From Scilla litardierei (taxonomy: Eukaryota; Streptophyta; Magnoliopsida; Asparagales; Asparagaceae): a stretch of 64,000 nucleotides of DNA. The DNA is taken from NCBI GenBank assembly GCA_030789695.1, contig CM061139.1:109218837-109282836 (forward strand), read 5' to 3'. Numbering within the stretch: the first letter of the stretch is position 1; each line of letters starts with the position of its first letter. Below, in pieces: positions 3,667 through 33,492 of this stretch. The notes beneath the pieces are model-generated. The model saw nothing but the letters and a program-made list of their open reading frames with translations, searched no databases and had not been told where the DNA came from. The position numbers and the translations under genes were made by a program.

Positions 3667-4397
3667 TGTAATGCCCTGCTAAGCTACTGCACAAGTACTA
3701 GAGGGGGGTGAATAGTACTTTAAAATAATTAAGAGGCTAATTCCTAATTACTTGCAAACTCTACCAAACAATGCGGAAAATGCGGAAATGTAAATGTTAG
3801 ACAACAAAGAAACAATCGTAAACAACGATATTACTGGGTTCGGATCCACCCAAGTCTCTCCGACTTGTTCCCGGTGATCCTACGTCCCAACCACCCGGAT
3901 CCCCTCCGGATACTCAAGTTAGAAACCCTAACTCAAGATTTCCACTATGAAATACTTGTGAAAAACCTTCACAAGTTAAATCATACACAAAGTAATTTGT
4001 GACTCCCACAACCCGGGATCACAACCACACTCTCACAACCGAGAGTGAAACTTACAATATGAATTGAAATGAAATAGAACTTCTTACCGACAAAATACCT
4101 ATGCCTTGAGTAATGCTTACGAATTAGGGCAAAGATGATTTTGAGGAAGAAGATGAGGCACCAAACCCTAGCTCCAAGATGTGGATCAACGATGGAGAGC
4201 TATGGGGATGTTGTTGACCTAGAATCAAGCACTTGGCTTGGAAGGCTTCACACTCAATGAATCTCACTTTGGAAGTAAGAGTGGGGAGAGATTATTGAAT
4301 GGAATGAAAGAGCTTTGAATGAGCTTGGAATGATTTCTGTTGATCTCTAAACTTGCAATAATATCAGCCTTGACTGCAATGAATGCAGCCCATCAAG

Positions 4398-4405
4398 TAT
4401 TTATA
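4398..4405 (-). promoter_or_regulatory. TATA box of element A LTR
   Basis: Minus strand reads TATAAATA, about 65 bases downstream (in element orientation) of the hairpin array. Transcription would start roughly 25-35 bases further, near 4370. The twin in the 5' LTR is at 14961-14968. Confidence 0.7.
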
Positions 4406-4470
4406 AGTTAGAGGAGAGAGAGAAAGAAAAACGTTTCAATTAATGCTCCAACGGCTCTTTTCTGAACCCA

Positions 4471-5007
4471 ACTAGTCGGTCAAAGAACAACCACCGACCG
4501 ACTAGTTCATCAACTAGTCGGTCGGTCAATTAACATAGACCGACTAATGAGAACAGAGAAAAGGTCGAAGCACAGACAAAAGGAACTAGTCGGTCCAAGA
4601 AGGGTACCTGACCGACTAGTTTCACAACTAGTCGGTCGGTTACTCAACTGATACCGACTAAGAGAAAAGCAAATAGTCTGAGAGCAAATTGAATTAGTCG
4701 GTCCAAGAACAAATGTTGACCGACTAGTTCATCAACTAGTCGGTCACCAAATGTGCATAGACCGACTAACGATAAACAGTAAGTCAGGTGAAAATTGGCA
4801 TGTACAGTAAAACTCAACTAGTCGGTCCAAGAAGGAAAGTTGACCAACTAGTTCATCAATTAGTCGGTCGATCAAAGAACACAGACCGACTAATGATAAA
4901 CCGTAACGAGCTTGGAAATGACTGACTGAAACTAGTCGGTCCAAGAAGCTTTGCCGACCGACTAGATGACCATCTAGTCGGTCAGTTCTTCTTCTTGAAC
5001 CAACTAA
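4471..5007 (-). repeat. CTAGTCGGTC hairpin array in U3 of element A (3' LTR)
   Basis: Five units of roughly 100-115 bp. Each holds CTAGTCGGTC, then a nearby GACCGACTAG, then CTAGTCGGTC again and GACCGACTAA, so each unit can fold into one or two hairpins. Half-sites are conserved while the sequence between them drifts. The array lies directly upstream of the TATA box in element orientation. The twin in the 5' LTR is at about 15032-15570, and a homologous array sits in unrelated element B. Confidence 0.9.
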
Positions 5008-5410
5008 CATGCACAAGAAGTCCCGAATCGAAGCGCGATGCTTCGGGAAAGATTGTATGGACTTCAACTAAGATCCTAGAGCTATGATATGAGCGTTATG
5101 AAGATTTAAGACGTAAGACCTACTCAAGGCTTAACATTCTACGAAAGAAGCTTAAAGACTATAAATAAAACTTGACGATACCGTCTTCAAAAGCTTCAAT
5201 CGAATCTTCATGACTTCTAAAATGGTCCATAAGCTTCAACGAAGCTTTAGGCATACGATCACGTGCTTTGAGAAGTCTTGAGACGTCGCTTTGGATGTTC
5301 ATATGAATTTGGCGACGATCTCCATAACTGCGCTCACAAAGTGTTAGTTCACGATATATTTATGTTTGTTCATCATCCAAAACCAAATCCGGGGAGTCCA
5401 ATATCCAACA

Positions 5411-5425
5411 TTCTCCCCCTTTTTG
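5411..5425 (-). promoter_or_regulatory. polypurine tract of element A
   Basis: Minus strand reads CAAAAAGGGGGAGAA directly before the 3' LTR, the expected plus-strand DNA primer. Similar CT runs on the plus strand near 5484, 5631 and 5712 may be extra purine tracts; several tracts are known in SIRE-type elements. Confidence 0.85.
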
Positions 5426-6372
5426 GTGATGACAAACCAACATAAATAATAATCAAAAATAATGATTCAAATGAAATTTACTTACTCCCCCTGCATTGAT
5501 GACACGTTAATTCCAAATTAAACAATAATAGTATGCATCAAGCAGACAAGTAAAGTATATAAAATGAGAATCGATTACCAAAAGTTGGTTATTGAAATAT
5601 CGGATTTGAAAATCCATTTATATATCTTAACTCCCCCTGAATCTAACATATCAAATTAGATTCTTGGAAAGATGCTTTAAATTTTCATTTAGCACATCGT
5701 TATTATTATATCTCTCCCCCTTTGGCATTAGCAAAAAGAGCGGGAGGAGATCAACGACAACAACAATGGCTTCAAATAAAAGCACGGGAGTCGTAGAATA
5801 CGACGATGATTCAAGTGACACCAAAGGAAAATACGAATAAAATCAAGGCGTGTCAATGATACCATAGTCGAAAATCGTAAAACAAAATAATCAAAACTCA
5901 AATCAATTTTACGGATTGAGTTAAGGAATATACTCTTCAATATCAACATTCTTGGTTAATTTAGTGCATGGAAAACAATTCTATGTTTCCATAGAATAAA
6001 TTTCTATTAAACCAAGTTATTATCGTCGAGCGTCGAAATTAAGACATAAGAGACATATAAAGAATATATAATGTGCACAATATAATGGAATGTCAACATC
6101 GATGTATATAAATATAAATGAAGCATGAGTACAACAAAATCATACATCGTTAACATACAAAAGCGATCCAACGATCGAGGCACAAAATACAACAGCAGAG
6201 ATACCAAATCACACATATATCAGAGTATCACAAAACATACAACATCACCAGAGTACATCATTATACATCATCAAAATGATCCAAAAATCATAGCCACCCT
6301 CACTATCCTACCCAATCTCTCTCACAACTAGATATGTCATCCAATGTGCATCGGGAGAGGCCTCAAAGGAGC
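5426..6372 (-). other. 3' untranslated region of element A
   Basis: AT-rich internal DNA between the extra ORF and the 3' LTR. It holds up to three additional AGGGGGAG-type purine tracts (near 5484, 5631, 5712). Only short chance ORFs were seen. Confidence 0.7.
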
Positions 6373-8010
6373 TCAAGAGGCAGCGGGAGGATCAGAAGCA
6401 ACTGCAGGCTCAGCAGGAGCGGAGGTGGTAACTGGATCAGCTGGAATGTCAACGGGAGCGACGGTAGATGAGATCTCAGGCACGGTAGTGGAGACGATCT
6501 CAGGAGCAGCGACGGCAGTGGCCTCGGGAGCACCAGTCGAAGTATCCACCGCAGGTGTGGTGGCAACAGGAGTACTCTCGGGGTCACCAGCAGAAGAGAC
6601 AGCAGCAGCACCAGAAGTGCCCTCGGGGGCACGAGTAGAAACACGAGCAAGCTCCTCAATGTCCTCCTCATCCAACTCATCCTCGTCAGAAAAAGACGGA
6701 GGGATCTCAATATCAAGGTGACGAGCTATACGGCAGAGAATCTCCTCAGAACGAGCCTGACGAGACTCCAAACGTCGCACAGAACGAACGAGCTCGGCAA
6801 GAGTGGAAGAGGGAGCAGCAGAGGCAGACGCGGAGGCAGACGCTGAAGGTGTCATCCTCTGAACGTGACGGAGTGCCGCAAGAGACTTCTTGACGGCCGT
6901 CGCGTTTAGAGGAGGACCAAGAGGTCGCTCATCGTCACGAGGGAGTGTGACACGGAAGTGGCGAAATACCAGAGTCAACAAGCACGAGAAGGGGATATGA
7001 GCCGACTTCGTGGACTTGCGAACACACTCCAAAGAGTCCATCTTATCGAGTATAATGCGAGCCCAGTTAATCGAGCTCCCCATGAAAATAGCATAGATCA
7101 ATTTCAAGAAGGGCTGGGACGGTAGAGATGAGGAGCCGTACTTGGGAAGCAAGCACGACTTCAGAATCAAATTCAGGACCCATGCATTAGGCTTGAAGGA
7201 TTTGGAGGGTACGCCAATCATGGCGGGAGGAATCTGATGGAAAATCTCAGAAAGGATGGTCTGATCGAGGGAAGATATATCATCAACAGAAATGTCAGAG
7301 GGGAGGAGGCCAGACGAGGAGATACCCAAAATCTCTCCTAAGATTTCTGCCGTGAGGACTATAGGAGTCCCCAAAACAGTCGTCTCAATCGAGTGGGTCT
7401 CGTCGTACTGACCCCAGACGCGGTTGGCATAGAAAAGTTTCACTAGGCGAGGGTAGGGGTGAGGGTTCGACTTCGGGTCATATCGAAGGTAATCGAGAAG
7501 ACCTGAGGACGAAAGAAGATCAGCTAGCCCTATGAAGTCACTAAACTGCACGAAATGCTCCAGAAGCAGTGGGCAATGTTCAATACGGTTGTAAGCCGCG
7601 AGACACAGAGGGTCGTCACGACACAACGAGATATCGACACCGCCTACCGGCATCGGAGCCTTTCCCTTAGGCTTTCGGGTAGACGTACGTGGTCGGGAGC
7701 TAGACTCAGGATGGGTAGGAGGAGTGGGTTCCCTATGAGTCTCAGTCTCGGGTCTGAACTCGGTATCGGAATCGGTAGGAGTATGGAAAGAGGAGGGAAA
7801 GGCAAGTTCCTTGGTCTTGGGCATAGGCTTGGGCTTGGGTTGAGCACGGGGCTTTGCTTTCGTCGTCCTCTTACGCTTAAGAGGAGGCGAAGACGAAGAG
7901 GGTTCGGTAGGCTTCGAACGACGTTTCGGAGGAGGGGGGTCCGAGGGTGGCGAATCGACGGTCATGGGCGAAGGGCCAGAGGGAGTGATCGAAATACGTG
8001 TACGAGCCAT
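6373..8010 (-). CDS. additional ORF of element A, putative plant transposon protein family
   Basis: An uninterrupted 545-residue ORF that begins MARTRIS, lying downstream of pol in the place where SIRE elements carry an env-like gene. Residues 1-125 are rich in Pro, Ser, Lys and Arg with basic clusters resembling nuclear localisation signals. Residues about 130-330 hold a folded-looking domain with LVKLFYAN and TAEILGEILGI, which I recognise as the putative plant transposon protein family (Pfam Transposase_32 type). A basic helical stretch near 395-425 precedes an acidic EDELDEEDIEEL segment and an Ala/Thr/Pro/Val-rich tail. No signal peptide or transmembrane segment is obvious, which argues against an envelope role. 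It is intact while the neighbouring gag-pol is broken. Its function is unknown. The plus ORFs at 6344-6721 and 7555-8052 are antisense shadows. Confidence 0.8.
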   Translation of the reverse strand: MARTRISITPSGPSPMTVDSPPSDPPPPKRRSKPTEPSSSSPPLKRKRTTKAKPRAQPKPKPMPKTKELAFPSSFHTPTDSDTEFRPETETHREPTPPTHPESSSRPRTSTRKPKGKAPMPVGGVDISLCRDDPLCLAAYNRIEHCPLLLEHFVQFSDFIGLADLLSSSGLLDYLRYDPKSNPHPYPRLVKLFYANRVWGQYDETHSIETTVLGTPIVLTAEILGEILGISSSGLLPSDISVDDISSLDQTILSEIFHQIPPAMIGVPSKSFKPNAWVLNLILKSCLLPKYGSSSLPSQPFLKLIYAIFMGSSINWARIILDKMDSLECVRKSTKSAHIPFSCLLTLVFRHFRVTLPRDDERPLGPPLNATAVKKSLAALRHVQRMTPSASASASASAAPSSTLAELVRSVRRLESRQARSEEILCRIARHLDIEIPPSFSDEDELDEEDIEELARVSTRAPEGTSGAAAVSSAGDPESTPVATTPAVDTSTGAPEATAVAAPEIVSTTVPEISSTVAPVDIPADPVTTSAPAEPAVASDPPAAS

Positions 8011-8260
8011 AATCGAGGCACTACACGACGCAAGAGATCGAAGAAGCCCTAGAGAATCGAAATGACACCCTAGCCGAAATGATCTAACCCTAGAGAGCTA
8101 ACCCTAACCCTAGGAAGCTAAAAGAGGGGAGAGGATCACCTAGGAGGAGAGGGTCACGGTCGGCGACGGAGGAGATGGCCGGAAACAGGCCGGAGATCGA
8201 CGGACACGAAGGAAGAAGTCGAAGGGTCGGGGGGTTTTGAGCTGGAGAGAGGGGAGAGAG
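8011..8260 (-). promoter_or_regulatory. leader of the extra ORF with telobox-like motifs
   Basis: The DNA just upstream of the extra ORF is CT-rich on the minus strand. It has several TTAGGGT/CCCTAA telobox-like motifs between 8066 and 8115, typical of plant 5' leaders. A weak TATA-like CTATACTC lies near 8275-8282. Whether this is an independent promoter is inference. Confidence 0.35.
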
Positions 8261-8530
8261 ACCGACTAAAAGTGAGTATAGTCGGTCGGGGCTGAGTTTT
8301 AATCGACTGGAATTCGAAAAGACAAAACAGTCCCCGTCACAACTAGTCGGTCACAGTTCAAGCACTGACCGACTAGATTACGATCTAGTCGGTCGGTCAA
8401 TGAGCTTGAACCGACTAGTTGCAAACAGTGGCTGAACCCAATTTAACTGACAAGAATTAGTCGGTCTGAGTTCATTTACTGACCGACTAGATCTCAATCT
8501 AGTCGGTCGGTCAATGAACATGAACCGACT
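8261..8530 (-). repeat. internal copy of the CTAGTCGGTC hairpin module upstream of the extra ORF
   Basis: Two full units (about 8341-8425 and 8456-8532) plus a half unit at 8261-8287 repeat the half-sites of the LTR array, in the same orientation. They lie between pol and the extra ORF, on its 5' side. The remaining sequence to 8782 is AT-rich and non-coding. Confidence 0.85.
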
Positions 8531-8782
8531 AAGGAGGTCCAAAAATTTTAGAATTTGAAATTTTGATTTCTCTCCTAATCGCATATCGATGAAACATCAA
8601 AACACTCTCATTAATCATTATACTACCCCATTAAACATCGAAAATCTAAAATTTGACGATTACGCACAAATCGAGCGAAAATTCCGAAAATTCAACAAAA
8701 ATCCAGAAAATTTCAATTAATCTAGCATGAGCAAATATAAAGAATTGAATAGCATGCAAGATTATTGAAAAACATATGAATC

Positions 8783-10641
8783 CTAAATCTCGGATTCACC
8801 CATAATCCCCAATTCTCGACGCAACCGCACAAAGGAGTCCTCCTTTAGGGGTTTCGTGAAAATATCGGCGATTTGCTTCTGGGTTTCAACGTACACTAAT
8901 ATGATGTCCTTTTTAGCAACATGATCATCTAAGAAATGGTGTCGGACATCTATGTGTTTCGAACGGGAATGGTGTACCGGGTTCTTGGAGAGACATATTG
9001 CACTTTGGTTGTCCACCATGATAGGGCAAGTATCACAGTTTATCCCAAAGTCTTTAAGTGTGTGTCTCATCCAAAGAACTTGAGCACACGCGGCACCGGC
9101 GGCAATGTATTCCGCCTCGGTGGTTGAAAGTGATACGGAATTCTGCTTCTTGGAAAACCAAGAGACAAGAGAATTTCCTATAAAATGGCAAGTGCCACTA
9201 GTACTTTTCCTGTCGGATTTGCATCCCGCATAATCGGCGTCACTATATGAGATTAACTCATATGTGCTAGATTTTGGATAAAGTAATCCAAAATCAAGTG
9301 TGTAACTTAGATAACGGAAAATACGTTTTACCGCTACTAAGTGTGACTCCTTAGGTTGAGACTGATAACGAGCACATACGAATACGGCAAACATAATATC
9401 GGGCCTACTTGCGGTAAGATAAAGTAAACTACCTATCATACCTCGATATAGACGAATGTCTACATCCTTACCGCCCGTATCCTTATCAAGATGCGTAGTT
9501 GTGCTCATTGAAGTCTTTTTCCCGGAGGCATTCTCCATTCCAAATCGCTTTAGCAACTCCACCGTATACTTCGTTTGGTGGATGAAGATTGCATCGTCCA
9601 TTTGGCGAATTTGGAGACCTAAGAAATATTTGAGCGCACCCATGTGGCTCATCTCAAATTGATCCTTCATCACATTAGAAAACTCTTCGCAAAGAGCAAA
9701 GTTAGTAGCACCGAAAATGATATCATCAACATATATTTGGACTAAAATTATATCATTATTCGAATACTTAACAAATAATGTGGAATCAACTTCTCCCATT
9801 TTAAATCCTAAATCCAAAAGAAAATTCTTTAGACGGTCATACCAAGCTCGAGGAGCTTGTCTCAAACCGTAAAGAGCTTTCTTAAGTTTAAAAACATGAT
9901 TTGGAAATTTTTCATTAATAAAACCCGGAGGTTGAGGAACATAAACTTCCTCAACAACATCTCCGTTTAAAACACACTTTTAACATCCATTTGAAATAAT
10001 TTAAAATCTTTATGGCATGCAAAAGACAATAATAATCTAATTGATTCTAATCTAGCTACCGGAGCGAAGGATTCTTCGAAATCAATACCTTCCTCTTGAC
10101 GGTAGCCTTGAGCAACCAACCGAGCTTTGTTCCGGACGACGACTTGGTTTTCGTCGGTCTTGTTCTTGAAGATCCACTTTGTCCCTATGACGGTGTGGTT
10201 CTTCGATGGCAAAGGAACAAGCTCCCAAACCTCATTCCTCTCGAATTGAATGAGTTCCTCCTCCATGGCTAAGATCCAAGCGCTATCTTCGCACGCCTCA
10301 TTAATATTCTTTGGCTCAATCGAGGAGGCAAAGGCACAATGCGCGAAGTAGTTCACTTGCGATCTCGTCTTGACACTATCATGGATATTGCCAATGACTT
10401 GCTCATGAGGATGGTCACGAACGGTATGAAGTCGTTTGGGAATACCTTGATCACTAGGAACATTCTCAAAAACTTCATTAGTAGGGTTAGTCTCAATAGA
10501 ATCAATAGAATTATTGGAATTAGAAATAGAATTACCAATTGAATCACATAAGACATCCATAGAGTCATCATCATTAGTAATTCGAGTTGGGACAAATCCT
10601 TCATTAAATGAGACATGAAGCGATTCCTCGATCGTTGAGGT
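8783..10641 (-). pseudogene. RT and RNase H of element A (broken)
   Basis: Ty1/copia reverse transcriptase with [32 protein letters not shown] and the catalytic YVDDI motif, then RNase H with SYSDADYAG, SLSTTEAEYIAAG and KHIDVRHHFLDD. The sequence ends at GESEI with a stop at 8783. A one-base loss in a T run near 9969 shifts the frame just after DVKS, splitting RT into 9967-10560 and the downstream part. A TGA at 10642-10644 separates it from integrase. LLYLTASRPDIMF and the linker style fit the SIRE lineage. The catalytic residues remain, so the damage is recent. Confidence 0.9.
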
Positions 10642-14226: not shown

Positions 14227-14960
14227 AATGTAATGCACTGCTAAGCTACTGCACAAGTACTAGAGGGGGGGTGAATAGTACTATAAAATAATTAAGAGGC
14301 TAATTCCTAATTACTTGCAAACTCTACCAAACAATGCGGAAAATGCGGAAATGTAAATGTTAGACAACAAAGAAACAATCGCAAACAACGATATTACTGG
14401 GTTCGGATCCACCCAAGTCTCTCCGACTTGTTCCCGGTGATCCTACGTCCCAACCACCCGGATCCCCTCCGGATACTCAAGTTAGAAACCCTAACTCAAG
14501 ATTTCCACTATGAAATACTTGTGAAAAACCTTCACAAGTCAAATCATACACAAATTAATTTGTGACTCCCACAACCCGGGATCACAACCACACTCTCACA
14601 ACCGAGAGTGAAACTTACAATATGAATTGAAATGAAATAGAACTTCTTACCGACAAAATACCTATGCCTTGAGTAATGCTTACGAATTAGGGCAAAGATG
14701 ATTTTGAGGAAGAAGATGAGGCACCAAACCCTAGCTCCAAGATGTGGATCAGCGATGGAGAGCTATGGAGATGTTGGTGACCTAGAATCAAGCACTTGGC
14801 TTGGAAGGCTTCACACTCAATGAATCTCTCTTTGGAAGTAAGAGTGGGGAGAGATTATTGAATGGAATGAAAGAGCTTTGAATGAGCTTGGAATGATTTC
14901 TGTTGATCTCTAAACTTGCAATAATATCAGCATTGACTGCAATGAATGCAGCCCATCAAG

Positions 14961-14968
14961 TATTTATA
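14961..14968 (-). promoter_or_regulatory. TATA box of element A 5' LTR
   Basis: TATAAATA on the minus strand, the copy positioned to drive element A transcripts. Element B inserted at the far 5' end of U3, so the array and TATA box remain joined. Confidence 0.7.
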
Positions 14969-15031
14969 AGTTAGAGGAGAGAGAGAAAGAAAAACGTTTC
15001 AATTAATGCTCCAACGGCTCTTTTCTGAACC

Positions 15032-15570
15032 CAACTAGTCGGTCAAAGAACAACCACCGACCGACTAGTTCATCAACTAGTCGGTCGGTCAATTAACATA
15101 GACCGACTAATGAGAGAACAGGGAAAAGGTCGAAGCACAGACAAAAGGAACTAGTCGGTCCAAGAAGGGTAGCTGACCGACTAGTTTCACAACTAGTCGG
15201 TCGGTTACTCAACTGATACCGACTAAGAGAAAAGCAAATAGTCTGAGAGCAAATTGAATTAGTCGGTCCAAGAACAAATGTTGACCGACTAGTTCATCAA
15301 CTAGTCGGTCACCAAATGTGCATAGACCGACTAACGATAAACAGTAAGTCAGGTGAAAATTGGCATGTACAGTAAAACTCAACTAGTCGGTCCAAGAAGG
15401 AAAGTTGACCGACTAGTTCATCAACTAGGCGGTCGATCAAAGAACACAGACCGACTAATGATAAACAGTAACGAGCTTGGAAATGACTGACTGAAACTAG
15501 TCGGTCCAAGAAGCTTTGCCGACCGACTAGATGACCATCTAGTCGGTCAGTTCTTCTTCTTGAACCAACT
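15032..15570 (-). repeat. CTAGTCGGTC hairpin array in U3 of element A (5' LTR)
   Basis: The same five-unit array as at 4471-5007, with a few half-site differences, for example CTAGGCGGTC near 15425. Confidence 0.9.
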
Positions 15571-15964
15571 AACATGCACAAGAAGTCCCGAATCGAAGCG
15601 CGATGCTTCGGGAAAGATTGTATGGACTTCAACTAAGATCCTAGAGCTATGATATGAGCGTTATGAAGATTTAAGACGTAAGACCTACTCAAGGCTTAAC
15701 ATTCTACGAAAGAAGCTTAAAGACTATAAATAAAACTTGACGATACCGTCTTCAAAAGCTTCAATCGAATCTTCATGACTTCTAAAATGGTCCATAAGCT
15801 TCAACGAAGCTTTAGGCATACGATCACGTGCTTTGAGAAGTCTTGAGACGTCGCTTTGGATGTTCATATGAATTTGGCGACGATCTCCATAACTGCGCTC
15901 ACAAAGTGTTAGTTCACGATATATTTATGTTTGTTCATCATCCAAAACCAAATCCGGTGAGTCC

Positions 15965-16533
15965 TGTCACGACTCGCTTCCCTAAAATGGAGGCGAGACG
16001 TGAGAAGGTCCGCACGAGAGTGGAGCTGTGAAGCCCTAAACCCGATAAGCGTCAATAATACATAAGCAGGTCCCTGTAACCACAACGGAATAATAATAAT
16101 AACACAAGGAGAGACTGAAATAAAATCTCACATCTCATACATTGTCCAACAAGAAAATAAGTCCAACATCCAGAAAAGCCACCAGGCTAAAAGAGAAGAA
16201 TCTAAAGGCCCAGAACAAGGCCAACAAAAGCAACAACAACAACAAAGTATAGGTGCTACGCACCGATAACAAACAACTGTTTAACAAAAGTAAAACACAA
16301 CGAAGACACTAGGACTGGTCCCCAGTGTCCACGTACTCCCCGTCAAACACAAGCTCGGGCTCGGCGTCAGCAAACACCTCGTCCTCAACAAGGTACTCAG
16401 GCTCAGGATCTAACATGTGTCACCCAAAAGAGTAAAGGGGCACATGTCAGCAAGTCTAAAAGACTTGGGCAAGGAAACTGAAAGTAAGGCAACTAGCAAC
16501 CTAGCAGTTTAGTATGCATGACATGGCAGTTAT
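15965..16533 (-). repeat. 3' LTR of element B, outer part (split by element C)
   Basis: Matches 39052-39620 almost base for base and breaks at 16533 where element C entered. GTTAT at 16529-16533 and 32276-32280 is the duplication made by element C. Confidence 0.92.
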
Positions 16534-17577
16534 TGTAGGAATATTATGCCCTCGAGGCCATTTATTCCTGTGTGAATAGCACAAACATCTTGTTCGAAAT
16601 AACAGTAAGCTGTTTGGTAATAATTTATCTAAGTTATATTGTTATATAGTTAACGTTAGATATCAACTTAGGTAAAGTCCTGAGACTTTATGCAAGGTCA
16701 AACGTGTATCGAGATGAGTATCTCGATCATGGAGAAACGTTTGACCGTCTGTAGCATAAGTCTGAAATGGTTCATGGTCGTAGATGTTTCGAGACAAGGA
16801 TATCGAAACATCGGATAGACCATTGTGTCTTAGTCTTCACCGTTTAGCGGTGGCGATGATCTCATGATCGTTTGACTTGGCGAAGTCGAAGACGAGACAC
16901 AGGTGCTCATTAGAATGAGTTCACTGAACGATCCACTAGAGTTATCATATGGTTATATTGACCAATCTGTCAGTGATAACTCTGAGTGATGATAGGATAG
17001 TTGGTCTTTTGACTTGAGGTCATTTTAACGGACCTGTGCGTGAATGGTGCCACTTAGATCAACTGACCTAGCTTCGAGGCAAGGCCTGTCGAAAGGTCTT
17101 TTGATTGGGTGTCACTTGAAACGTACGAGGCGAGTAATGACCAAGAGAGGATTCGTCTCTCCCGGTCAATGGGAGTTAGTGTCGTAGAGTTAGTTCGGTC
17201 TTTAGTAAAAACTCTGCGCAGAGTATGTTGGAAGATGTCCAACATTAGTCGACTAAAGATCGATAGAAACTAACCGGAGTCAAGTTATTGGGGTTGACAG
17301 TTTGACCGTACCCCAGACTTGATCTACACGACACAGCTAAGACGAAAAGACTATAACTACGGAATTCATCACGGAAACAGTCAGGTGGTCCCGACAATAC
17401 TCATGTCAATGAGTCAACCACATAATGATGATTCCTGAAGCAGGGACGGCAACCACTGCTCGTGGTCACTGCCGTATAGGGCTTCGAGCCCAACCTGTTG
17501 TAAGGGTCAGGCTGTAGGGTCTCACACAGAGTGTAACGCTTCGTCTAGTAATAGGTAGAAATTAGTTAGGGAGAATA

Positions 17578-17668
17578 TTTGCATTTGACGCAAAAGAAGA
17601 GATAATTGCATTTGATGCAATATGGTAATTTAAGCTTAGATAGGGACTATTTTGCATTTGATGCAAAA
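17578..17668 (+). repeat. three TTGCATTTGATGCAA palindromes in U3 of element C
   Basis: Palindromes lie at 17578-17595 (one changed base), 17606-17620 and 17651-17668. Arms of 6-8 bp surround a TTG centre. The same trio recurs in LTR2 and LTR3 at offsets of 6557 and 13114. Confidence 0.85.
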
Positions 17669-17839
17669 GCAATTAAATGTGTATTAAATTGTTTAATACA
17701 ATATTTAATAAGATAAACGCAAGGAAAAAGTTCACGGGTAAGACGGGAATGTCCCGGTCTAGACCCAGGTTCGAACGGCGTCCAAATCGGACGCCGGATG
17801 CTCAAGTTAGAGCCAAAACAGCCAAACAGATCAGACCGG

Positions 17840-18118
17840 GTCAGACCAGGCTGACCCAGACCAGACCAAGTCTGGCCTGGGTGCCTGGCCAGACCTGGCT
17901 GAGCCAGGAACCCAGGCAGCCAGGCCTGGGCACAGGCCCAGGCGCTGGGCGCCTGGGCCTGCGCCCAGGCGGGCCTGGGCGCCTGGGAGCCCAGGCGCCC
18001 TGGGCGCCTGGGCGCCCAGGCGCCCTGGGCCGGGCGCCTTGGGCGCCCGGCCCAGGCGCCCGGGCCCAGACTTGGGCGCCCGTGCCCAAGTCTGGGTTTT
18101 GGGCGCCCAGTCAGACTT
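17840..18118 (+). repeat. GC-rich CAGGCGCC palindrome array in LTR1
   Basis: Repeated GGGCGCCTGGGCGCC-type palindromes. The large ORFs on both strands here (for example 17677-18198) are Pro/Gly/Arg-rich readings of the array and not genes. The array is identical in LTR2 (24397-24675) but rearranged and 68 bp longer in LTR3 (30954-31300). Confidence 0.9.
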
Positions 18119-18399
18119 GTGGGTCCCACCTCTGGGTGTGGAACCCTAGGTTTAATGGGCAGTTTTTGACGGCTCGTTTTTGTGAAAAACTAGCCTAGGG
18201 CTGATCTTTGGACACTCAATTGGAGGGTCAAACGAACTCCGATTGACGAACGGTTTTTTCCTATGCGTTCACCGTTGAACGCTTGTCGTATTGATAGGTT
18301 GTATCGATCTTGAAGCTCAACGGTGAGTGAGTTAAAATTCACGGAAGTTTGCACCTTTTGAAGTGCAAACTAACTTGATTTTAAATTAACTCTATTTTA

Positions 18400-18473
18400 G
18401 TCCCACATCGGATTTTGAGAAAAGGGGAGAGTCCGCCGCCTATATAAATAGGGGTCTCCCCCCTTTCTCAAAA
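18400..18473 (+). promoter_or_regulatory. snRNA-type upstream element plus TATA box in LTR1
   Basis: GTCCCACATCG at 18400-18410 matches the plant snRNA-gene USE consensus RTCCCACATCG. TATATAAATA follows at 18441-18450, with 30 bp between. The TATA box sits in the loop of an imperfect inverted repeat, TTTTGAGAAAAGGGGAGA (18413-18430) against 18455-18473. Copies are at 24957-25030 and 31582-31655. Confidence 0.7.
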
Positions 18474-19094
18474 CTCGTCCCAAGCTCTAGATCTGAGCGG
18501 CTCTCGTAAATGTTGGAGCACGCTCGGATCTAAGCTTAAATAAATATTTCTCTATCTCCCTAAAATTCTGCCTTACTCCTGCGGGCTCTAGCAAAGCCAC
18601 AAAGGAGTTCGGATTCTGGATCTGAAATCTTGGCGGAGGTTTCACTCGCGTGAAACTTTCTTCGGCGGTTGGTTGGCTCGGCGGCACGGGGATTGATCGC
18701 CTCGGGATGCGGAGCGGTTCGAGGAGCGGTTCGGGGAGCGGTTCAAGGAGCGGCTCGGCGTGGGACGGGAGCAGCTCGGAAGACGGCGCGGAACATCTCG
18801 CCTGCTCCAGGGCTGAGATTCCGGGTATGTGGTTAAAGTAGTTTATTAGCATTAGTTTAGTTTAATCGCAGTAGGCTAGATCCTTCTTGGGATGGTCAGA
18901 CCCATCCCAAGTCGGCAGAGATCTTGGCATAGGGTCTTGGACCTTAGGGCCAAGTTAAAATTGTTTTAACTTGCATGTTAATATAGATTAACTAGTTTTT
19001 CTTCCGCTGTAATTCTCTTTTATGTCTATGTTCCGTCCGACTTAGGACGGGACTAGAATTTTTGTGCCCTAAGGGAACGCCCAATTCCCTGCAG

Positions 19095-19107
19095 TGGTAT
19101 CAGAGCC
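19095..19107 (+). promoter_or_regulatory. primer binding site of element C, first copy
   Basis: TGGTATCAGAGCC, an exact initiator tRNA-Met primer site, one base after LTR1. The second copy is at 25652-25664, after LTR2. Confidence 0.92.
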
Positions 19108-19196
19108 TAGGTTTGCGTAGCGATCTAGGTACTGCGATTTTATTAAACGTGTTTAATGCTTTTAAATACTTTTTTAATTAAAAATATTTTTTAAAG

Positions 19197-19660
19197 TTAT
19201 GTGATAAATTTTAAAAATGTTTAAGATGTTCTAAAATTTTTTTTTTGGATAAATTTTGAACATGGAAATTTTTTAAAATAACGTTTTAAAATTTATGTGA
19301 TATTTTTAAAACTAATTTTAAATCTTTTAAAATTTATGCGATAAGTTTAAAGTGCCCAAAAATTTTTTATTTGCTAAATTTTTTAAGCATGAAAGTTTTA
19401 AAATGATGTTTTAATTTTATGAGATAATTTTAAAATTGATTTTAAAGATTAAAATTTTTATGAGATAAATTTTTCAAATAGCATGCAAAGTTAGTGATTT
19501 TAAAAATTAAGTTTTTTTTATGAGATAAAAATAAAATATTTTAAAATCATATTTTAAATTTAAATGTTAAATTTATGTATGCATGCTAAAAATTGTTTAT
19601 GCGATAAACTTGGTATATTTAAATGTTAAATAGTTGTGCACTATCTTTATGCGATAAATT
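19197..19660 (+). repeat. AT-rich TTATGNGATAA degenerate tandem repeat
   Basis: Eight related blocks (near 19197, 19285, 19333, 19415, 19455, 19515, 19595 and 19640) with a TTATG-N-GATA core, most followed by a T/A-rich run. Spacing is irregular, mostly 40-85 bp. They lie shortly after the primer site, where packaging or dimerisation signals usually are. The twin is 6557 bp further on. Confidence 0.7.
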
Positions 19661-22600
19661 AGTGTAGAGTTATTTTAATGGCATGTTATATCTTGTCCCT
19701 TATTTGATAACACAAGACAAACCTTTAGGTTAGCCATTAAAATTGATTAAAATTTATTACTTGAATTTTAATGACATGCTATGTTTTAATAAATCATTAA
19801 CAACAATATTAAGACCTAATACCTGATTAGGGTAGTCCTTTAAATGAATTTTCAATTCTAAATGTTATAATTAATTTTCATTAAAGGACTTCGCTTCTAG
19901 CGTTGTTAATAAAATTTATTAAAATCCTAACACCAAATAGGATAGCGCGTGAACCTTATAGTTGATAAGGACTTAATAAAAGTTATTAAACAAATCCTAA
20001 AAATTTTGAATTTAAGGATTCAACTAGTTGATAGGATTAATTAGTTGTTAATAAAAGCTGTTTAGTCTATGGCATACATACAAAAATGACAAGCTTCATT
20101 CAATGGACCATGATCCAGTCAATGTGCTTGGCTAAGAGTTCTGGGTCAACCCTTGCTAGTCCAAGGGGTAGTGATCCTGGCTTAGTCAATTCCCTGGCTG
20201 AGTTCCGCTGGACCGCAATGTCGCGAATCATGATTGTATGACACCCTGGACTATATCTAAGTCAAATACGTTAATGATCTTTTTCAAGATTAGCCGTATC
20301 CCTCCTTGTTTTAGGGGTTAGTAACTATAGGACCCGCGTTATAGTTGTTGAGATACACTCAAGCTGTAACCTGGCAATCTTATAGGAACCAACTCCTCAA
20401 ATACATAAGATGAAATCTTGACTAACCCTAACCGTCGTCTCGTACCCCGAGCGCTGGCGTAAGTTAAGTCAACGATGTAGTCTGCCTAGATGTAGTCTAA
20501 GACCTGACCCAAACCGACGTGTCGTGCATACACCGAGCTGAGGTGTAAGTCAGGCTAGACATGAAAACAAGGGTCCGACTAGACTAGACATTGTGATTTG
20601 GATGAGCACACTCATGATCCCGAATGGCTAGGGGCAAAAACCGATTAAGAGAGTCATATCCGATATGATCGATGAAGAGTCATCTTCCGATCGCAGAGTC
20701 AATCAACTTGTTGAGCTACACTCAAGGTTGTTTAGACTCAAGGTGATTGGAACTCTTACCCATTAATTTTAATTCGATTAAATCGTTCGTTATTAAGCTT
20801 TAAAACGTTCGTAAAATTAGTGTGAGGATATAGATAGATAAAAGCCAATCTACCTATATTTAATATTGAACATATGCTAAAACTAGGGCAAGACAATGTT
20901 TACCGAAAGAATCAATTGATAATATTGGAATTAGTTAACTGGTCAATAAGATGATTAATTGAATATCAAGTTAAATTCTAATTGATATAATTAAACTATA
21001 TTCTCATTGACATTAAATGACCTTCTAAAGAACAGACTTAAGAAATATGATTTCATTAAGTTCTGAGTCCAACAAATAAATTAAAGCTACATGTCACTCG
21101 TCTCTATATGAGGTAGCTTGAACATATAGGACATTCAAAGTATGTTTCTCCCTACAACTTGTCGAGCTACCCTCAAGGTTTTATGGACAAACAATTTTGA
21201 TCCGCAAAGTTCGAGAATTCGATTAAACCGTTTGAATCGAATACGAGTGCATGAGCGATGCAAAACTATGTATCCCAACCGGATCTTGAGACAAGCAACT
21301 TCTTGAGTTACACTCAAGATTGCAAAGCTCAAGCGTTTGGATACATAAGTTGCTTGCATAGCTATTTATTTATGTTGATATCTAAATATGATTTAGAAAA
21401 GGAAGAAGGCACTTCGGAAAGTCAATTGAGAAAGTTAGTTTAATTTATCATTAGTAGAGGCATAAGTAGGAGGAAATGAAAACGTGACATATTTTAAATG
21501 TCACATTTCGGAATAAGTTGTTATACAAAAGACGTTTAACACATTTTGACGAATGTCGTCACATTGCTTCTGAAGTAATGTTTTGTGTTAAGTAATTTGT
21601 AAATAACCATATATATATTAAATGTTAATATATAAATACACAAGATTGTAGCAAACTTATATGGTAAAATTAGACTAGGCCGTATCAAGAGATTAAGCTT
21701 CACAAGTCACATAAAGAGGGGTCTGACCTCTCGTATTATGAAGTCTACGGACACTTGTGAGTCTTAGCCGCTTAGATACAAAGGCCGAAACCCATCTGTA
21801 AGAAGTGGGAGAATGAGTTGTCGAACTCAGTCTCGTACATACTGATGTACCCGAGTCTATTTTTAACAAAATAAGTTATTCGTATATTTTACTAAGACAC
21901 GTGTTCTTGATGAAACGCAAGTCTGATAAAATAAAGAACGAAGTGACCAAAGTATTTAAACTGATTCGATTAGATCGAATGGTCAAATACTTAGCTAAAT
22001 AAAATCTTGTGTAATTAAAAGAAAATGTGATTTTCTCTCAGATCAAGTCTGTTAACACATCGGTGTGTTAAAAGGTATGAATCACACTTAATTAGATTTA
22101 GTGTGATCCATTGTAAGTGACTCTGAGCTAAGTCCTCCCTCTGGGTTAAGTCCCAAATAGTAATGCCTAGGTTTTGATAAAGTTCTATGAGAACATTATC
22201 AATAAGATATTCATTAAATCAAACATGAGGAAGTTGTATATTTACTCGAATTTCGTAAGACGAAAAGTCGAGTTAAGACATCATAACTAATGATGACTTA
22301 GTCAACTTTTAGGATGAAATCCGGAGTAGTAACTCCGATTTAAAACTTGATGCAATCAGAATAGGTCTGTGTGCGTAAATAAATTTGAGAATTTAGTTTA
22401 CGTGCCCAAGGAAAATGTTTTCTCACTTTCTGCAAGAAAATCTTTAAGTTGAAAGATTGGTGCAGAAAAGAAAATAGTGAAGTACAATAATGTTGGATGG
22501 GAACGGTTTTCATCCTAATTTCTTTAAAACGGATTATGATGAAACCGGTTTCGCCAACAGATGTGTACAGATCTACTCGGACCAAAGTCGATGTAAACGC

Positions 22601-22982
22601 TCAAGTTGACCATGAAAATCTGAGCATTCACTTATAAGTTCGTTTTTCTAAATATGATTTAGACGAACCAACTTATATGAATTGGCCAGATAGTTTTCAA
22701 GGTCAGTGGGAGCGTATAAATTACATGCGAATCATCAAAGGGATGGAACATACATTTTGACAAAGTAATCAAAAGGTTTGATACTTTATCAAGAATAGAT
22801 ATGAGCCATTTAAAATGACCAGTAACTAATTTAAAATTATTATCGTAAGGAACGATAAACTGGATAAGATCCAAGTAAAATAAAATATTATGGATTCCGA
22901 CAGACCAAATGAATTATTTGAATAAGATTCAAATGGTTGGTCTGACATGAACATAGAAACCCCTTAAGTCTATAGAGTAGAC

Positions 22983-23038
22983 GGTCTTAGCAGATCCACT
23001 CACGAAGGCTCTATCACATGAAGTCGGGAAAACTTATG
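22983..23038 (+). pseudogene. relic of copia RNase H C-terminus in element C
   Basis: The plus frame gives VLADPLTKALSHEV and then degenerates to a stop. ADPLTK is the hallmark end of Ty1/copia polyproteins and sits about 50 bp before the purine tract, as in element F. The identical copy is at 29540-29595. Confidence 0.65.
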
Positions 23039-23090
23039 TGTAAAACGATATTAGATATCGAGATAAATGGGCCTGAGTGCAAGTGGGAGA

Positions 23091-25650
23091 TGTAGGAATA
23101 TTATGCCCTCGAGGCCATTTATTCCTGTGTGAATAGCACAAACATCTTGTTCGAAATAACAGTAAGCTGTTTGGTAATAATTTATCTAAGTTATATTGTT
23201 ATGTAGTTAACGTTAGATATCAACTTAGGTAAAGTCCTGAGACTTTATGCAAGGTCAAACGTGTATCGAGATGAGTATCTCGATCATGGAGAAACGTTTG
23301 ACCGTCTGTAGCATAAGTCTGAAATGGTTCATGGTCGTAGATGTTTCGAGACAAGGATATCGAAACATCGGATAGACCATTGTGTCTTAGTCTTCACCGT
23401 TTAGCGGTGGCGATGATCTCATGATCGTTTGACTTGGCGAAGTCGAAGACGAGACACAGGTGCTCATTAGAATGAGTTCACTGAACGATCCACTAGAGTT
23501 ATCATATGGTTATATTGACCAATCTGTCAGTGATAACTCTGAGTGATGATAGGATAGTTGGTCTTTTGACTTGAGGTCATTTTAACGGACCTGTGCGTGA
23601 ATGGTGCCACTTAGATCAACTGACCTAGCTTCGAGGCAAGGCCTGTCGAAAGGTCTTTTGATTGGGTGTCACTTGAAACGTACGAGGCGAGTAATGACCA
23701 AGAGAGGATTCGTCTCTCCCGGTCAATGGGAGTTAGTGTCGTAGAGTTAGTTCGGTCTTTAGTAAAAACTCTGCGCAGAGTATGTTGGAAGATGTCCAAC
23801 ATTAGTCGACTAAAGATCGATAGAAACTAACCGGAGTCAAGTTATTGGGGTTGACAGTTTGACCGTACCCCAGACTTGATCTACACGACACAGCTAAGAC
23901 GAAAAGACTATAACTACGGAATTCATCACGGAAACAGTCAGGTGGTCCCGACAATACTCATGTCAATGAGTCAACCACATAATGATGATTCCTGAAGCAG
24001 GGACGGCAACCACTGCTCGTGGTCACTGCCGTATAGGGCTTCGAGCCCAACCTGTTGTAAGGGTCAGGCTGTAGGGTCTCACACAGAGTGTAACGCTTCG
24101 TCTAGTAATAGGTAGAAATTAGTTAGGGAGAATATTTGCATTTGACGCAAAAGAAGAGATAATTGCATTTGATGCAATATGGTAATTTAAGCTTAGATAG
24201 GGACTATTTTGCATTTGATGCAAAAGCAATTAAATGGGTATTAAATTGTTTAATACAATATTTAATAAGATAAACGCAAGGAAAAAGTTCACGGGTAAGA
24301 CGGGAATGTCCCGGTCTAGACCCAGGTTCGAACGGCGTCCAAATCGGACGCCGGATGCTCAAGTTAGAGCCAAAACAGCCAAACAGATCAGACCGGGTCA
24401 GACCAGGCTGACCCAGACCAGACCAAGTCTGGCCTGGGTGCCTGGCCAGACCTGGCTGAGCCAGGAACCCAGGCAGCCAGGCCTGGGCACAGGCCCAGGC
24501 GCTGGGCGCCTGGGCCTGCGCCCAGGCGGGCCTGGGCGCCTGGGAGCCCAGGCGCCCTGGGCGCCTGGGCGCCCAGGCGCCCTGGGCCGGGCGCCTTGGG
24601 CGCCCGGCCCAGGCGCCCGGGCCCAGACTTGGGCGCCCGTGCCCAAGTCTGGGTTTTGGGCGCCCAGTCAGACTTGTGGGTCCCACCTCTGGGTGTGGAA
24701 CCCTAGGTTTAATGGGCAGTTTTTGACGGCTCGTTTTTGTGAAAAACTAGCCTAGGGCTGATCTTTGGACACTCAATTGGAGGGTCAAACGAACTCCGAT
24801 TGACGAACGGTTTTTTCCTATGCGTTCACCGTTGAACGCTTGTCGTATTGATAGGTTGTATCGATCTTGAAGCTCAACGGTGAGTGAGTTAAAATTCACG
24901 GAAGTTTGCACCTTTTGAAGTGCAAACTAACTTGATTTTAAATTAACTCTATTTTAGTCCCACATCGGATTTTGAGAAAAGGGGAGAGTCCGCCGCCTAT
25001 ATAAATAGGGGTCTCCCCCCTTTCTCAAAACTCGTCCCAAGCTCTAGATCTGAGCGGCTCTCGTAAATGTTGGAGCACGCTCGGATCTAAGCTTAAATAA
25101 ATATTTCTCTATCTCCCTAAAATTCTGCCTTACTCCTGCGGGCTCTAGCAAAGCCACAAAGGAGTTCGGATTCTGGATCTGAAATCTTGGCGGAGGTTTC
25201 ACTCGCGTGAAACTTTCTTCGGTGGTTGGTTGGCTCGGCGGCACGGGGATTGATCGCCTCGGGATGCGGAGCGGTTCGAGGAGCGGTTCGGGGAGCGGTT
25301 CAAGGAGCGGCTCGGCGTGGGACGGGAGCAGCTCGGAAGACGGCGCGGAACATCTCGCCTGCTCCAGGGCTGAGATTCCGGGTATGTGGTTAAAGTAGTT
25401 TATTAGCATTAGTTTAGTTTAATCGCAGTAGGCTAGATCCTTCTTGGGATGGTCAGACCCATCCCAAGTCGGCAGAGATCTTGGCATAGGGTCTTGGACC
25501 TTAGGGCCAAGTTAAAATTGTTTTAACTTGCATGTTAATATAGATTAACTAGTTTTTCTTCCGCTGTAATTCTCTTTTATGTCTATGTTCCGTCCGACTT
25601 AGGACGGGACTAGAATTTTTGTGCCCTAAGGGAACGCCCAATTCCCTGCA
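23091..25650 (+). repeat. LTR2 (shared middle LTR) of element C
   Basis: 2560 bp. It shares 23203 G and 24237 G with LTR3 against LTR1, but has the short GC array of LTR1. It therefore looks like a recombinant of the two outer LTRs. T at about 25223 (in TTCGGTGG) is private to it. Confidence 0.93.
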
Positions 25651-28600: not shown

Positions 28601-29647
28601 CAAGTCTGTTAACACATCGGTGTGTTAAAAGGTATGAATCACACTTAATTAGATTTAGTGTGATCCATTGTAAGTGACTCTGAGCTAAGTCCTCCCTCTG
28701 GGTTAAGTCCCAAATAGTAATGCCTAGGTTTTGATAAAGTTCTATGAGAACATTATCAATAAGATATTCATTAAATCAAACATGAGGAAGTTGTATATTT
28801 ACTCGAATTTCGTAAGACGAAAAGTCGAGTTAAGACATCATAACTAATGATGACTTAGTCAACTTTTAGGATGAAATCCGGAGTAGTAACTCCGATTTAA
28901 AACTTGATGCAATCAGAATAGGTCTGTGTGCGTAAATAAATTTGAGAATTTAGTTTACGTGCCCAAGGAAAATGTTTTCTCACTTTCTGCAAGAAAATCT
29001 TTAAGTTGAAAGATTGGTGCAGAAAAGAAAATAGTGAAGTACAATAATGTTGGATGGGAACGGTTTTCATCCTAATTTCTTTAAAACGGATTATGATGAA
29101 ACCGGTTTCGCCAACAGATGTGTACAGATCTACTCGGACCAAAGTCGATGTAAACGCTCAAGTTGACCATGAAAATCTGAGCATTCACTTATAAGTTCGT
29201 TTTTCTAAATATGATTTAGACGAACCAACTTATATGAATTGGCCAGATAGTTTTCAAGGTCAGTGGGAGCGTATAAATTACATGCGAATCATCAAAGGGA
29301 TGGAACATACATTTTGACAAAGTAATCAAAAGGTTTGATACTTTATCAAGAATAGATATGAGCCATTTAAAATGACCAGTAACTAATTTAAAATTATTAT
29401 CGTAAGGAACGATAAACTGGATAAGATCCAAGTAAAATAAAATATTATGGATTCCGACAGACCAAATGAATTATTTGAATAAGATTCAAATGGTTGGTCT
29501 GACATGAACATAGAAACCCCTTAAGTCTATAGAGTAGACGGTCTTAGCAGATCCACTCACGAAGGCTCTATCACATGAAGTCGGGAAAACTTATGTGTAA
29601 AACGATATTAGATATCGAGATAAATGGGCCTGAGTGCAAGTGGGAGA
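25651..29647 (+). other. internal region of element C, second copy (non-coding)
   Basis: Repeats 19094-23090 at exactly the same length and, as far as read, the same sequence. It has primer site 25652-25664, four GAGNTACNCTCAAG hairpins, the RNase H relic and purine tract 29638-29647. Confidence 0.9.
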
Positions 29648-32275: not shown

Positions 32276-32413
32276 GTTATAACATGAGTGCACAATTTAA
32301 GACATGGCAAGACAATTTGTACAAGAGAACGATCATCGGGACAAGACAAGACAAGACAAGACAAGAGTAGCCACGCTACTATCAATCTCAATCAATTCAC
32401 ATTGTTTGCAGGT

Positions 32414-32547
32414 GTTTACGCCCTTCGCTGAATGGTACAACATTCAGACCGATCGGCACTAAACACAAATCACGTTTCACGTTGTTTTGTAGATGTTTAC
32501 GCCCTTCGCTGAATGGTACAACATTCAGACCGATCGGCACTAAACAC
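32414..32547 (-). repeat. 81-bp tandem duplication with internal palindromes in element B LTR
   Basis: Two copies start at 32414 and 32495. Each has the inner stem CTGAATG / CATTCAG and outer GTGTTTA/TAAACAC-type ends. The other LTR has the same pair at 39754 and 39835. It lies downstream of the TATA box, in transcribed R/U5 sequence. Confidence 0.8.
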
Positions 32548-33485
32548 TACCCCACCCCAAAGAGTTTACGCCTTACAACTGCAGTTGTTGATCAAACAGA
32601 CCCCCAGTTGCCTGGCCGCTTAACCCTTACCCCATCCCGCACTAAACAAGCCAGGGTCCCTGAACATGAGCCCAGCAAGTGAGCCAGGGTTGCCCCGCAC
32701 GGGAGCTTGTTTCTTAGTTCACAATTCAATATATCGAGCGTTGGGGTTAGCAACTCATTATGCTCGCTTCTGGTCACGAGCCATGAACACAAGTAGTGTA
32801 GCGATGCTACGCAATCACGGGATCACCAAAAGAATGCAATGACATGACATTTAATTCGCGTACCGTTAATGGAAAGTAAACATGAAATGGTAATTGTGCA
32901 ACATGCTAAATGTCGGAACTAGCTTCGTTGTCAGCTAGTTCCCCAATTTGCGCCTAGGCGAGTATCATTTCGTCGCCTAGCCTCTTTTACGCCTACAACA
33001 AGCAAATGGCCTAAAACATGGCCTAAACCCTAAGTGGCAAGTTTCACTTGCCTAGCACCGGGGATGACGACCACTTCGTCACACGGATGCCAATCTACGG
33101 GGAAATCGCTGTTTTGGGGGAACAATCATCAAACAACATGAAATTTTATTAGGGTTTCATAAAAATGTAAATAGGTTATGAAAACAACGGTAGATCGATT
33201 TCTTACCGAGAGGAAGCGGAAGAAACACTCCGGGGAACCCTAGGATCAGATCTGGAAAAGATTGGAGAAGTTTGGGGAAACTAGGGTTTTGGGGGATTTG
33301 GGGATTTTGATGGATTTGGTGAGATTTTGGGGAAGATGAGAGGTAGATAGAGTGGATGGATGGTTTGGATGATGGATTTAGGGCTTGGAATGAAGAAATG
33401 AAGCTTGGAGGAAGATGGGGGCTCAAGGGGGAAGATTTTAGGGTTTTGGGTCGTGTTGGAGAAGATGAAATCGTTTGGGTTGGGT

Positions 33486-33492
33486 TTAAATA
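33486..33492 (-). promoter_or_regulatory. TATA box of element B 3' LTR
   Basis: Minus strand reads TATTTAA within CCTATTTAAACCCA, about 45 bases downstream of the hairpin array in element orientation. The 5' LTR copy is at 40826-40832. Confidence 0.65.

Follow-up and report, generated by a model that had tools for sequence, protein, structure and literature searches.

A Sirevirus-type U3 array present in colinear form in copia and gypsy retrotransposons of Scilla litardierei

In Scilla litardierei, copia and gypsy retrotransposons have in common a block of about 600 bases of repeated sites ahead of their promoters, arranged in the same order. By its sequence features, the copia array is the already known Sirevirus repeated motif, a point that the first-pass annotation of this DNA had missed. 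What is new here is a Sirevirus-type array, colinear and accompanied by about 85 bp of distal flank, in two gypsy lineages. The original observation, that a copia and a gypsy element carry the same promoter module, is confirmed and is stronger than first stated. The simplest reading is probably one old en bloc transfer onto the TATA region of a gypsy element, with a Sirevirus as the probable donor. With moderate confidence, we favor the idea that a Sirevirus U3 cassette was captured once by a gypsy element as a block and would work as a promoter-proximal enhancer through a protein that binds its half-sites.

The usual view is that control sequences evolve inside a single retrotransposon superfamily. 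If the transfer is true, control modules move between unrelated retrotransposons, as a U3 module crossing between Copia and Gypsy would show. Divergent descendants would have preserved the order of the units and their near-fixed geometry, and the transferred module would have multiplied to a very high copy number. A single plant genome would then contain candidate binding sites in very large numbers, nearly identical to one another.

Arrays in nested copia and gypsy elements

The window (the whole 64,000-nucleotide stretch that was analysed) comes from a genome of 3.68 Gb and is composed of nested LTR retrotransposons. The elements and their parts are as follows.

3667–41577, minus strand: copia element A, outer target duplication GACAT
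3667–5411, minus strand: low-coordinate (3') LTR copy of A
5413–5721, minus strand: four polypurine-tract copies of A, motif AGGGGGAG, with CTCCCCCT at 5413, 5485, 5631 and 5714
6373–8097, minus strand: ORF3 of A, PF20167 ('putative plant transposon protein'), the internal array lying directly upstream
8783–9979, minus strand: copia-type reverse transcriptase of A, PF07727
12192–13970, minus strand: gag of A, PF14223 and zinc knuckle
14229–15964, minus strand: other LTR of A, split at 15964/41562 by element B, with the end of A at 41577
15965–41561, minus strand: gypsy element B, inside the second LTR of A, 5-bp target duplication AGTCC
15965–16533, minus strand: end part of the 3' LTR of B, with element D inserted at 16533/16534 (duplication GTTAT)
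16534–32275: element D, splitting the 3' LTR of B, duplication GTTAT
32276–34222, minus strand: remainder of the 3' LTR of B
34269–38907, minus strand: coding region of B, with gag PF03732, protease, reverse transcriptase PF00078, RNase H, integrase zinc finger, SH3_Tf2-1 and a weak chromodomain
39052–41561, minus strand: 5' LTR of B

Element A is a Sirevirus by its marks, which are copia domains, AGGGGGAG tracts by the 3' LTR (four within 310 bp) and a third ORF. Element B is a Ty3/gypsy element by the order of gag, reverse transcriptase, RNase H and integrase, and does not qualify as a Sirevirus; none of the window's eight exact AGGGGGAG matches, counted on both strands, falls within it. Its Pfam domains are PF03732, PF00078, PF17917, PF17921 and PF24626, and the position of the integrase after RNase H marks it as gypsy-type. 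The Chromo match at the C-terminus of the integrase is weak (E 1.2e-4, 22.3 bits, against a curated cut-off of 25.1). As first proposed, the two elements belong to different superfamilies, with copia domains in A and gypsy domains in B. Five arrays are present in these elements, and we list them with their flanks and TATA-like boxes.

4398–4405, minus strand: TATA-like box TATAAATA of A, 67 bp after the array
4472–5007, minus strand: array in the 3' LTR of A, five quartet units, F starts at 4472, 4586, 4694, 4818 and 4932
5008–5110, minus strand: TATA-distal flank of A, homologous to that of B
8260–8532, minus strand: internal array of A, between the reverse-transcriptase ORF and ORF3, two full units and one partial unit
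15035–15572, minus strand: array in the other LTR of A, five units
33486–33492, minus strand: TATA-like box TATTTAA of B, 44 bp after the array
33536–33953, minus strand: array in the 3' LTR of B, four units, F starts at 33536, 33652, 33765 and 33878
33954–34060, minus strand: TATA-distal flank of B, homologous to that of A
40876–41292, minus strand: array in the 5' LTR of B, four units, one half-site with a 1-base deletion

With at most one mismatch, 75 copies of the half-site CTAGTCGGTC occur in the window against 2.05 expected, and none of 100 shuffles reaches 75 (shuffle maximum 6). The five arrays contain 72 of the 75. Each LTR array of the window has 13–19 half-sites when up to two mismatches are allowed, and each LTR array of A has 19. 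The LTR array of A begins about 404 bp from the start of the LTR, extends over 536 bp and ends 67 bp before the TATA-like box. The CpG observed/expected ratio is 1.13 in the five window arrays (A and B pooled) versus 0.88 elsewhere, at an array GC content of just 0.44.

The first-pass annotation had named four LTR sites in A and B, all of which were recovered with coordinates within 4 bp. Both elements lie on the minus strand, and the claims that array orientation relative to the element is alike and that unit design is identical both hold. So does the position just upstream of TATA, with TATA-like boxes at 67 bp in A and 44 bp in B. The same spacer had also been claimed for both elements. A linker motif is indeed common to them, but the letters differ among linkers: AAACAGTAACTC is found in two of the three B linkers and AACAGTAACTC in the remaining one, and two of the four A linkers contain AAACAGTAAGTC or AAACCGTAACGAG. 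TTACTGTTT occurs seven times in the window arrays and 0 times in the remainder of the window. The third array inside A, at 8260–8532, is a feature absent from the earlier description. Internal arrays ahead of ORF3 are also present in two other loci (L017 and L021), and no second, non-LTR array was found in element B.

Meanwhile, we notice other palindromic sequences in the window. In element D, a 6,557-bp head-to-tail repeat comprises two internal regions and three LTRs. A palindromic run rich in GC (CGCCTGGGCG-like) lies in the LTR of D at about 17850–18110, approximately 330 bp upstream of a TATATAAATA box. The leader of copia element E (57153–57737), between its LTR (58239–58852) and gag, contains a dense GGCCAGGGCC/GGCCGGCC inverted-repeat array, which uses another word than the arrays of A and B in a similar dyad style.

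Unit geometry and possible functions

The unit is a quartet of half-sites, F-24-R-18-F-24-R from start to start, with spacers of 14, 8 and 14 bp. The half-site is 10 bp long with the consensus (C/T)TAGTCGGTC, and four of them form a dyad in each unit. Across 74 units from all carriers, with six second LTRs left out, half-site positions 2–9 are conserved at 88–100%, and positions 1 and 10 are the most variable. Given the start distances of 24, 18 and 24, like-oriented half-sites are 42 bp apart, which is about four helical turns. Units repeat at a distance of 104–125 bp, mostly 113–116 bp, and spacer identity between units of the window is 33–72%.

Spacing was counted in 22 arrays from the window and the fetched loci, with both LTRs of an element included, weaker overlapping hits dropped and L031 not among them. 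F-to-R neighbors are at 24 in 169 of 172 cases; the other three, at 14, sit in loci retrieved by searching for exactly their spacing. All 99 R-to-F neighbors inside units are at 18, and the other 73 of 172 are linkers of 42–82. Distances of 41 and 65 (FF) and of 63, 71 and 74 (RR) are artefacts of a half-site with more than two mismatches or a 1-base deletion. In the whole genome, exact inner pairs whose half-sites are 0–30 bp apart number 238,937; the spacer is exactly 8 bp in 238,470 of these, and the reversed control pattern of the inner pair occurs 0 times.

The exact outer pair with a 4-bp spacer is found at three places in the genome (L006, L007 and L009). Those in L006 (1075–1604) and L007 (2–530) resemble a 32-bp duplication in the TATA-proximal unit, and the one in L009 (9096–9715) resembles a loss in the distal unit. 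Among IMG/VR viral contigs, the inner pair is present at two places, both single hairpins and not arrays, which we read as chance. On an IMG/VR contig (L002, 818–845), a single GACCGACTAG...CTAGTCGGTC hairpin is followed by a T run, like a bacterial terminator, and is read as unrelated.

The near-fixed geometry suggests a constraint from protein assembly on DNA. We think that a sequence-specific protein would bind the four half-sites of a unit jointly on DNA, and that the bound array would act as a promoter-proximal enhancer of the adjacent TATA box. In A, the internal array would perhaps also drive ORF3. Both superfamilies would thereby come under one signal. A host-factor enhancer is plausible, and would fit both the place of the array upstream of TATA and the near-fixed spacing. 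Protein binding, enhancer action and the identity of the binder are points that we infer from the sequence.

Among named candidates for the binder, the best would be an AP2/ERF factor of the host from the DREB/CBF class, since ACCGAC is part of every exact half-site. This word occurs 85 times in the 2.2 kb of window arrays versus 11 times in the other 61.8 kb, and the array half-sites contain the A/GCCGAC core of the DREB/CBF site. On the other hand, DREB1A prefers A/GCCGACNT, with T, not A, at the eighth base. The conserved half-site word ACCGACTA has A at this base, and its departure from the DREB1A preference counts against the DREB reading.

Alternatively, the array may have been selected as an inverted repeat, forming RNA hairpins that feed small RNAs, or DNA cruciforms, in which case the motif would not be a protein site. 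We consider this rather unlikely. Folding five units as RNA yields strong hairpins of -38 to -46 kcal/mol, values that come with no shuffle control, and the 14-bp spacers show a complementarity of 7.0/14 within a unit versus 6.1/14 between units (permutation p 0.0028, for 22 non-independent units). Bousios et al. are said to have tied the LTR palindromes of maize Sireviruses to siRNAs in 2016, a link that would also favor hairpins. However, equal spacers are no requirement for a hairpin, and those observed measure 14, 8 and 14 nearly throughout; a stem needs complementarity alone, whereas one fixed word occupies all four slots. In addition, since the array lies upstream of TATA, the main transcript should be without the 5' LTR copy of the array, which argues against its selection as an RNA hairpin.

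Carriers, homology and transfer

Other members of both families also carry the array. It is present in 20 of 20 LTR copies of carrier families that were read at the array position, 10 copia and 10 gypsy. These comprise four copies of the window, five in L006, L007 and L009 (retrieved for the motif), two in L010 (which adjoins L006), eight in the blind loci L011–L030, and one in L031. The last was retrieved beside blind L022, whose LTR similarity pointed to an array past its edge; the adjoining 4 kb contained one. Opposing this all-carrier pattern, L026, whose downstream LTR part is 73–91% identical to that of carrier L022, has no array. L013 (143 bp) and L015 (252 bp) contain short A-like LTR pieces without array, and the A-related L015, which is readable in part, was left out of the count of array presence.

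The copia carriers are A-type elements (window, L009, L021, L025), L017, and L007 grouped with L023. The gypsy carriers are B-type elements (window, L006, L010, L011 and the second L012 array) and a second lineage (the first L012 array and L031/L022). Matching coding domains or homologues accompany the arrays of gypsy B, L006, L010, L011 (gag) and both L012 elements, and those of copia A, L017, L021 and L025; L007, L009 and L023 were assigned to copia from their LTRs. Protein identity to B is 78% (pol) and 80–84% (integrase parts) for the L012 member, and 47–53% in gag for L022.

Arrays are abundant in the genome. Among 20 blind stretches of 10 kb, which comprise 196,313 readable bases on contigs C1–C10, six contain arrays, ten in number with 154 half-sites, and the extrapolated genome total is about 2.9 million half-sites (bootstrap 0.9–5.3 million). 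The first 100 inner pairs listed, from the first 0.8 Mb of C1, correspond to 35 arrays, of which 16 are gypsy-type, 17 copia-type and 2 unassigned by a rough vote of spacer words that overlap between the types.

We compared the units of copia and gypsy arrays in order. The best spacer pairing between A and B is A1 with B1 (72%), A5 with B4 (67%) and A3 with B2 (64%), and the colinear order is the best of all, reached by 120 of 2,880 permutations (1 in 24). For five-unit arrays in eight colinear comparisons of copia with gypsy, 1 to 9 of 120 orders are as good. Colinearity between the gypsy loci L031 and L006 is weaker (16 of 120 permutations), and each of the colinearity p-values is modest when taken alone. 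The unit periods are 113, 114, 109 and 116 in copia L021 and gypsy L031 alike, and 33 of 100,000 random draws are as close. They are 113, 115, 110 and 116 in copia L007, and 114, 115, 109 and 116 in gypsy L012. In L021 as in L031, no linker is shorter than the third, which is also without TTACTGTTT. Period matches are poorer for window A and L017, with 6–13% of random draws as close; the match of window A to the gypsy series (8–13% of draws) is no better than chance. Overall, units and linkers are colinear, and the likeness of the arrays goes beyond what a common short motif would produce. With this likeness and the array found in all 20 LTR copies, neither of the refutation tests set in the first-pass annotation overturned its observation.

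Similarity had also been claimed for about 90 bp beyond the array. This stands on the TATA-distal side, where A and B are alike over approximately 84 bp with a score of 29 (0 of 500 shuffles as high, the maximum of 28 leaving a narrow margin), but not on the TATA-proximal side, where 13 of 200 shuffles score as high. In 17 of 23 arrays, copia-to-gypsy identity is 46–65% for the distal flank and 76–88% for the last unit. The unrooted tree of this distal module, built from the same 17, splits copia from gypsy by one change (91/87; 92% of bootstraps). G1_W5, SC_L007a and SA_L009, in which the first unit is lost, merged or altered, and three internal arrays were dropped from it.

On the TATA side, the likeness stops at the array edge. 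B-type and L012 gypsy LTRs continue with AAACCCTAATTT-like sequence and then a TATA-like box at 44–47 bp, and copia LTRs have a different proximal sequence with a TATA-like box at 54–68 bp. These distances leave out L031, L023 and one L007 copy, in which the sequence ends too early, and the 76 bp of L006a is counted from a duplicated unit. The TATTTATA boxes of L010 and L012, outside the TATA pattern used, were spotted by eye at about the same place. In L017 (1206–2297), an A-like distal LTR and array are fused to a TATA-proximal part without detectable similarity to that of A. This junction may be another sign of the array edge as a recombination boundary.

Unit orthology, colinearity, identical periods, the distal flank and the tree argue for homology over convergence. 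Exchange between superfamilies, one of two origins suggested in the first-pass annotation, is supported by the common unit order, the linker-length series, the distal flank and the one-change tree. We propose that about five units and about 85–100 bp of TATA-distal flank would have been acquired as a block, once, and that the gypsy recipient was probably an ancestral chromovirus. The acquired block would have been set 44–47 bp upstream of the gypsy element's own TATA box. We infer this single transfer and its direction, of which Sirevirus to gypsy is the likelier because arrays are present in many Sireviruses and gypsy relatives free of the array exist.

There are two such gypsy-type relatives, L013 and L026. 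L013 is a gypsy relative with 66–77% amino acid identity in pol and integrase, and its LTR contains neither an array nor comparable palindromes. In the pol tree, it falls outside the five carriers (87/92), and the outgroup, L019, has no visible LTR. The gypsy-type LTR of L026 (2002–5640) starts as in L012 and continues downstream as in L022, and its U3 and TATA region are unrelated to those of the carriers. No coding match was found to place L026 in the tree. It indicates that U3 changes while the remainder of the LTR stays, and its layout is as a U3 swap would leave it; its array-free state may represent array loss.

The route of transfer is a guess, either strand transfer between co-packaged RNAs or a recombinant from a nested insertion. 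B sits in the LTR of A, at a distance of 392 bp from its array and flanked by a clean target duplication. In L012, a B-type element has similarly inserted into the LTR of a different gypsy element that carries the array, so that nesting is common. We rejected these present nestings as the exchange event because the arrays differ by about 30%.

A transfer from gypsy to copia, a third element or a host promoter as the common source, or more than one transfer is, in our view, unlikely. Such readings are favored by the distal-module tree being unrooted and by there being just two array-free gypsy-type relatives, L026 perhaps by loss. On the other hand, Sireviruses of other plants bear such arrays at both sites in the accessible text of PMC2829016, and A-type elements also have an array upstream of ORF3 (window, L017, L021), with none second in B.

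A doubtful extension of the one-time capture is that gypsy elements pirate copia control, so that the captured block would let them be switched on or shielded from silencing by a factor that Sireviruses use, possibly one that Sireviruses encode. If this is true, approximately a quarter million exact inner pairs, brought into a 3.7-Gb genome by the two lineages together, could titrate the factor or rewire nearby genes. It is very unlikely, we think, that the binder is encoded by the element, for example as the ORF3 product, and lifts silencing, the gypsy elements having copied the sites and borrowing the copia protein. VANC provides a precedent, as VANC6 also acts on an unrelated repeat with the same motif (PMC5735166, accessible text). 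The internal array lies directly ahead of ORF3, and extra linker copies are described solely in ENV-containing Sireviruses in the accessible text of PMC2829016. However, the same text has four Sireviruses with LTR motifs and no ENV, and ORF3 shows PF20167 alone in Pfam, with no named DNA-binding domain. The predicted structure of ORF3 was discarded (mean pLDDT 41, pTM 0.22).

Independent spread, the other origin first suggested, in which one host-factor site was amplified separately in copia and gypsy, is highly improbable: binding-site arrays do form by tandem repeats, for example in VANDAL elements (PMC5735166, accessible text), and motif words differ among Sireviruses (PMC2829016, accessible text), but the two superfamilies agree in their series of linker lengths, in spacers and linkers that are specific to position, and in a flank outside the array.

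Comparison with known systems

Clusters of a repeated motif (RM) in Sireviruses were described by Bousios et al., 2010 (PMC2829016). As far as the accessible text of that paper goes, palindrome arrays are present in the LTRs of 13 Sireviruses of monocots and eudicots, 12 of them with a CGG-CCG core, and further motif copies lie upstream of ENV in nine. The RM is defined there as a CGG-CCG palindrome in at least 8 copies, 200–400 bp into the LTR and upstream of TATA, and its clusters define CpG islands. Comparison with other Ty1/copia elements led its authors to call it specific to Sireviruses, and no one factor was found for all Sirevirus motifs.

The array of A is like the RM in its palindromic CGG-CCG core, its many copies, its place in U3 upstream of TATA, and a second cluster placed immediately ahead of the third (ENV-like) ORF. 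The half-site is similar to RM core words such as CGGTCGACCG from Vitis and TCGGTCYCACCGA from Barbara (PMC2829016, accessible text). Where the RM is a single compact palindrome, each unit here consists of four 10-bp half-sites set apart by near-fixed spacers of 14, 8 and 14 bp. Also unlike the RM as described for Sireviruses, the same array is present here in Ty3/gypsy elements. If the transfer is true, it offers a natural test of the role of the Sirevirus repeated motif, a question left by the accessible text of PMC2829016.

The DRE/CRT core is A/GCCGAC and is bound by DREB/CBF factors, and Vitis CBFs activate reporters with GACCGACAA and GACCGACTC (PMC4196112, accessible text). The half-site GACCGACTA resembles these tested variants, GACCGACTC and GACCGACAA. 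In the same text, the RD29A promoter has CCGAC twice, whereas each LTR array of the window has 13–19 half-sites in dyad quartets.

Judged by title, we found no prior report of the colinear gypsy array block, the quartet geometry or the abundance, and no title on Sirevirus-type motifs in gypsy or chromovirus elements or on regulatory exchange between copia and gypsy; the coverage left subscription journals mostly outside. The literature containing the 10-mer CTAGTCGGTC included, by title, none on retrotransposons.

VANDAL elements are DNA transposons. Their VANC proteins recognise motifs of 8–9 bp, which are dense in non-coding regions of the elements to which the proteins belong; an unrelated repeat bearing the same motif is affected by VANC6 as well (PMC5735166, accessible text). 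The half-sites here are similarly short, dense and non-coding, built by repeat formation, and present in an unrelated repeat too. VANDAL motifs have one orientation in that text, whereas the half-sites here, for which an element-encoded binder is a candidate only, are arranged as dyads in LTRs.
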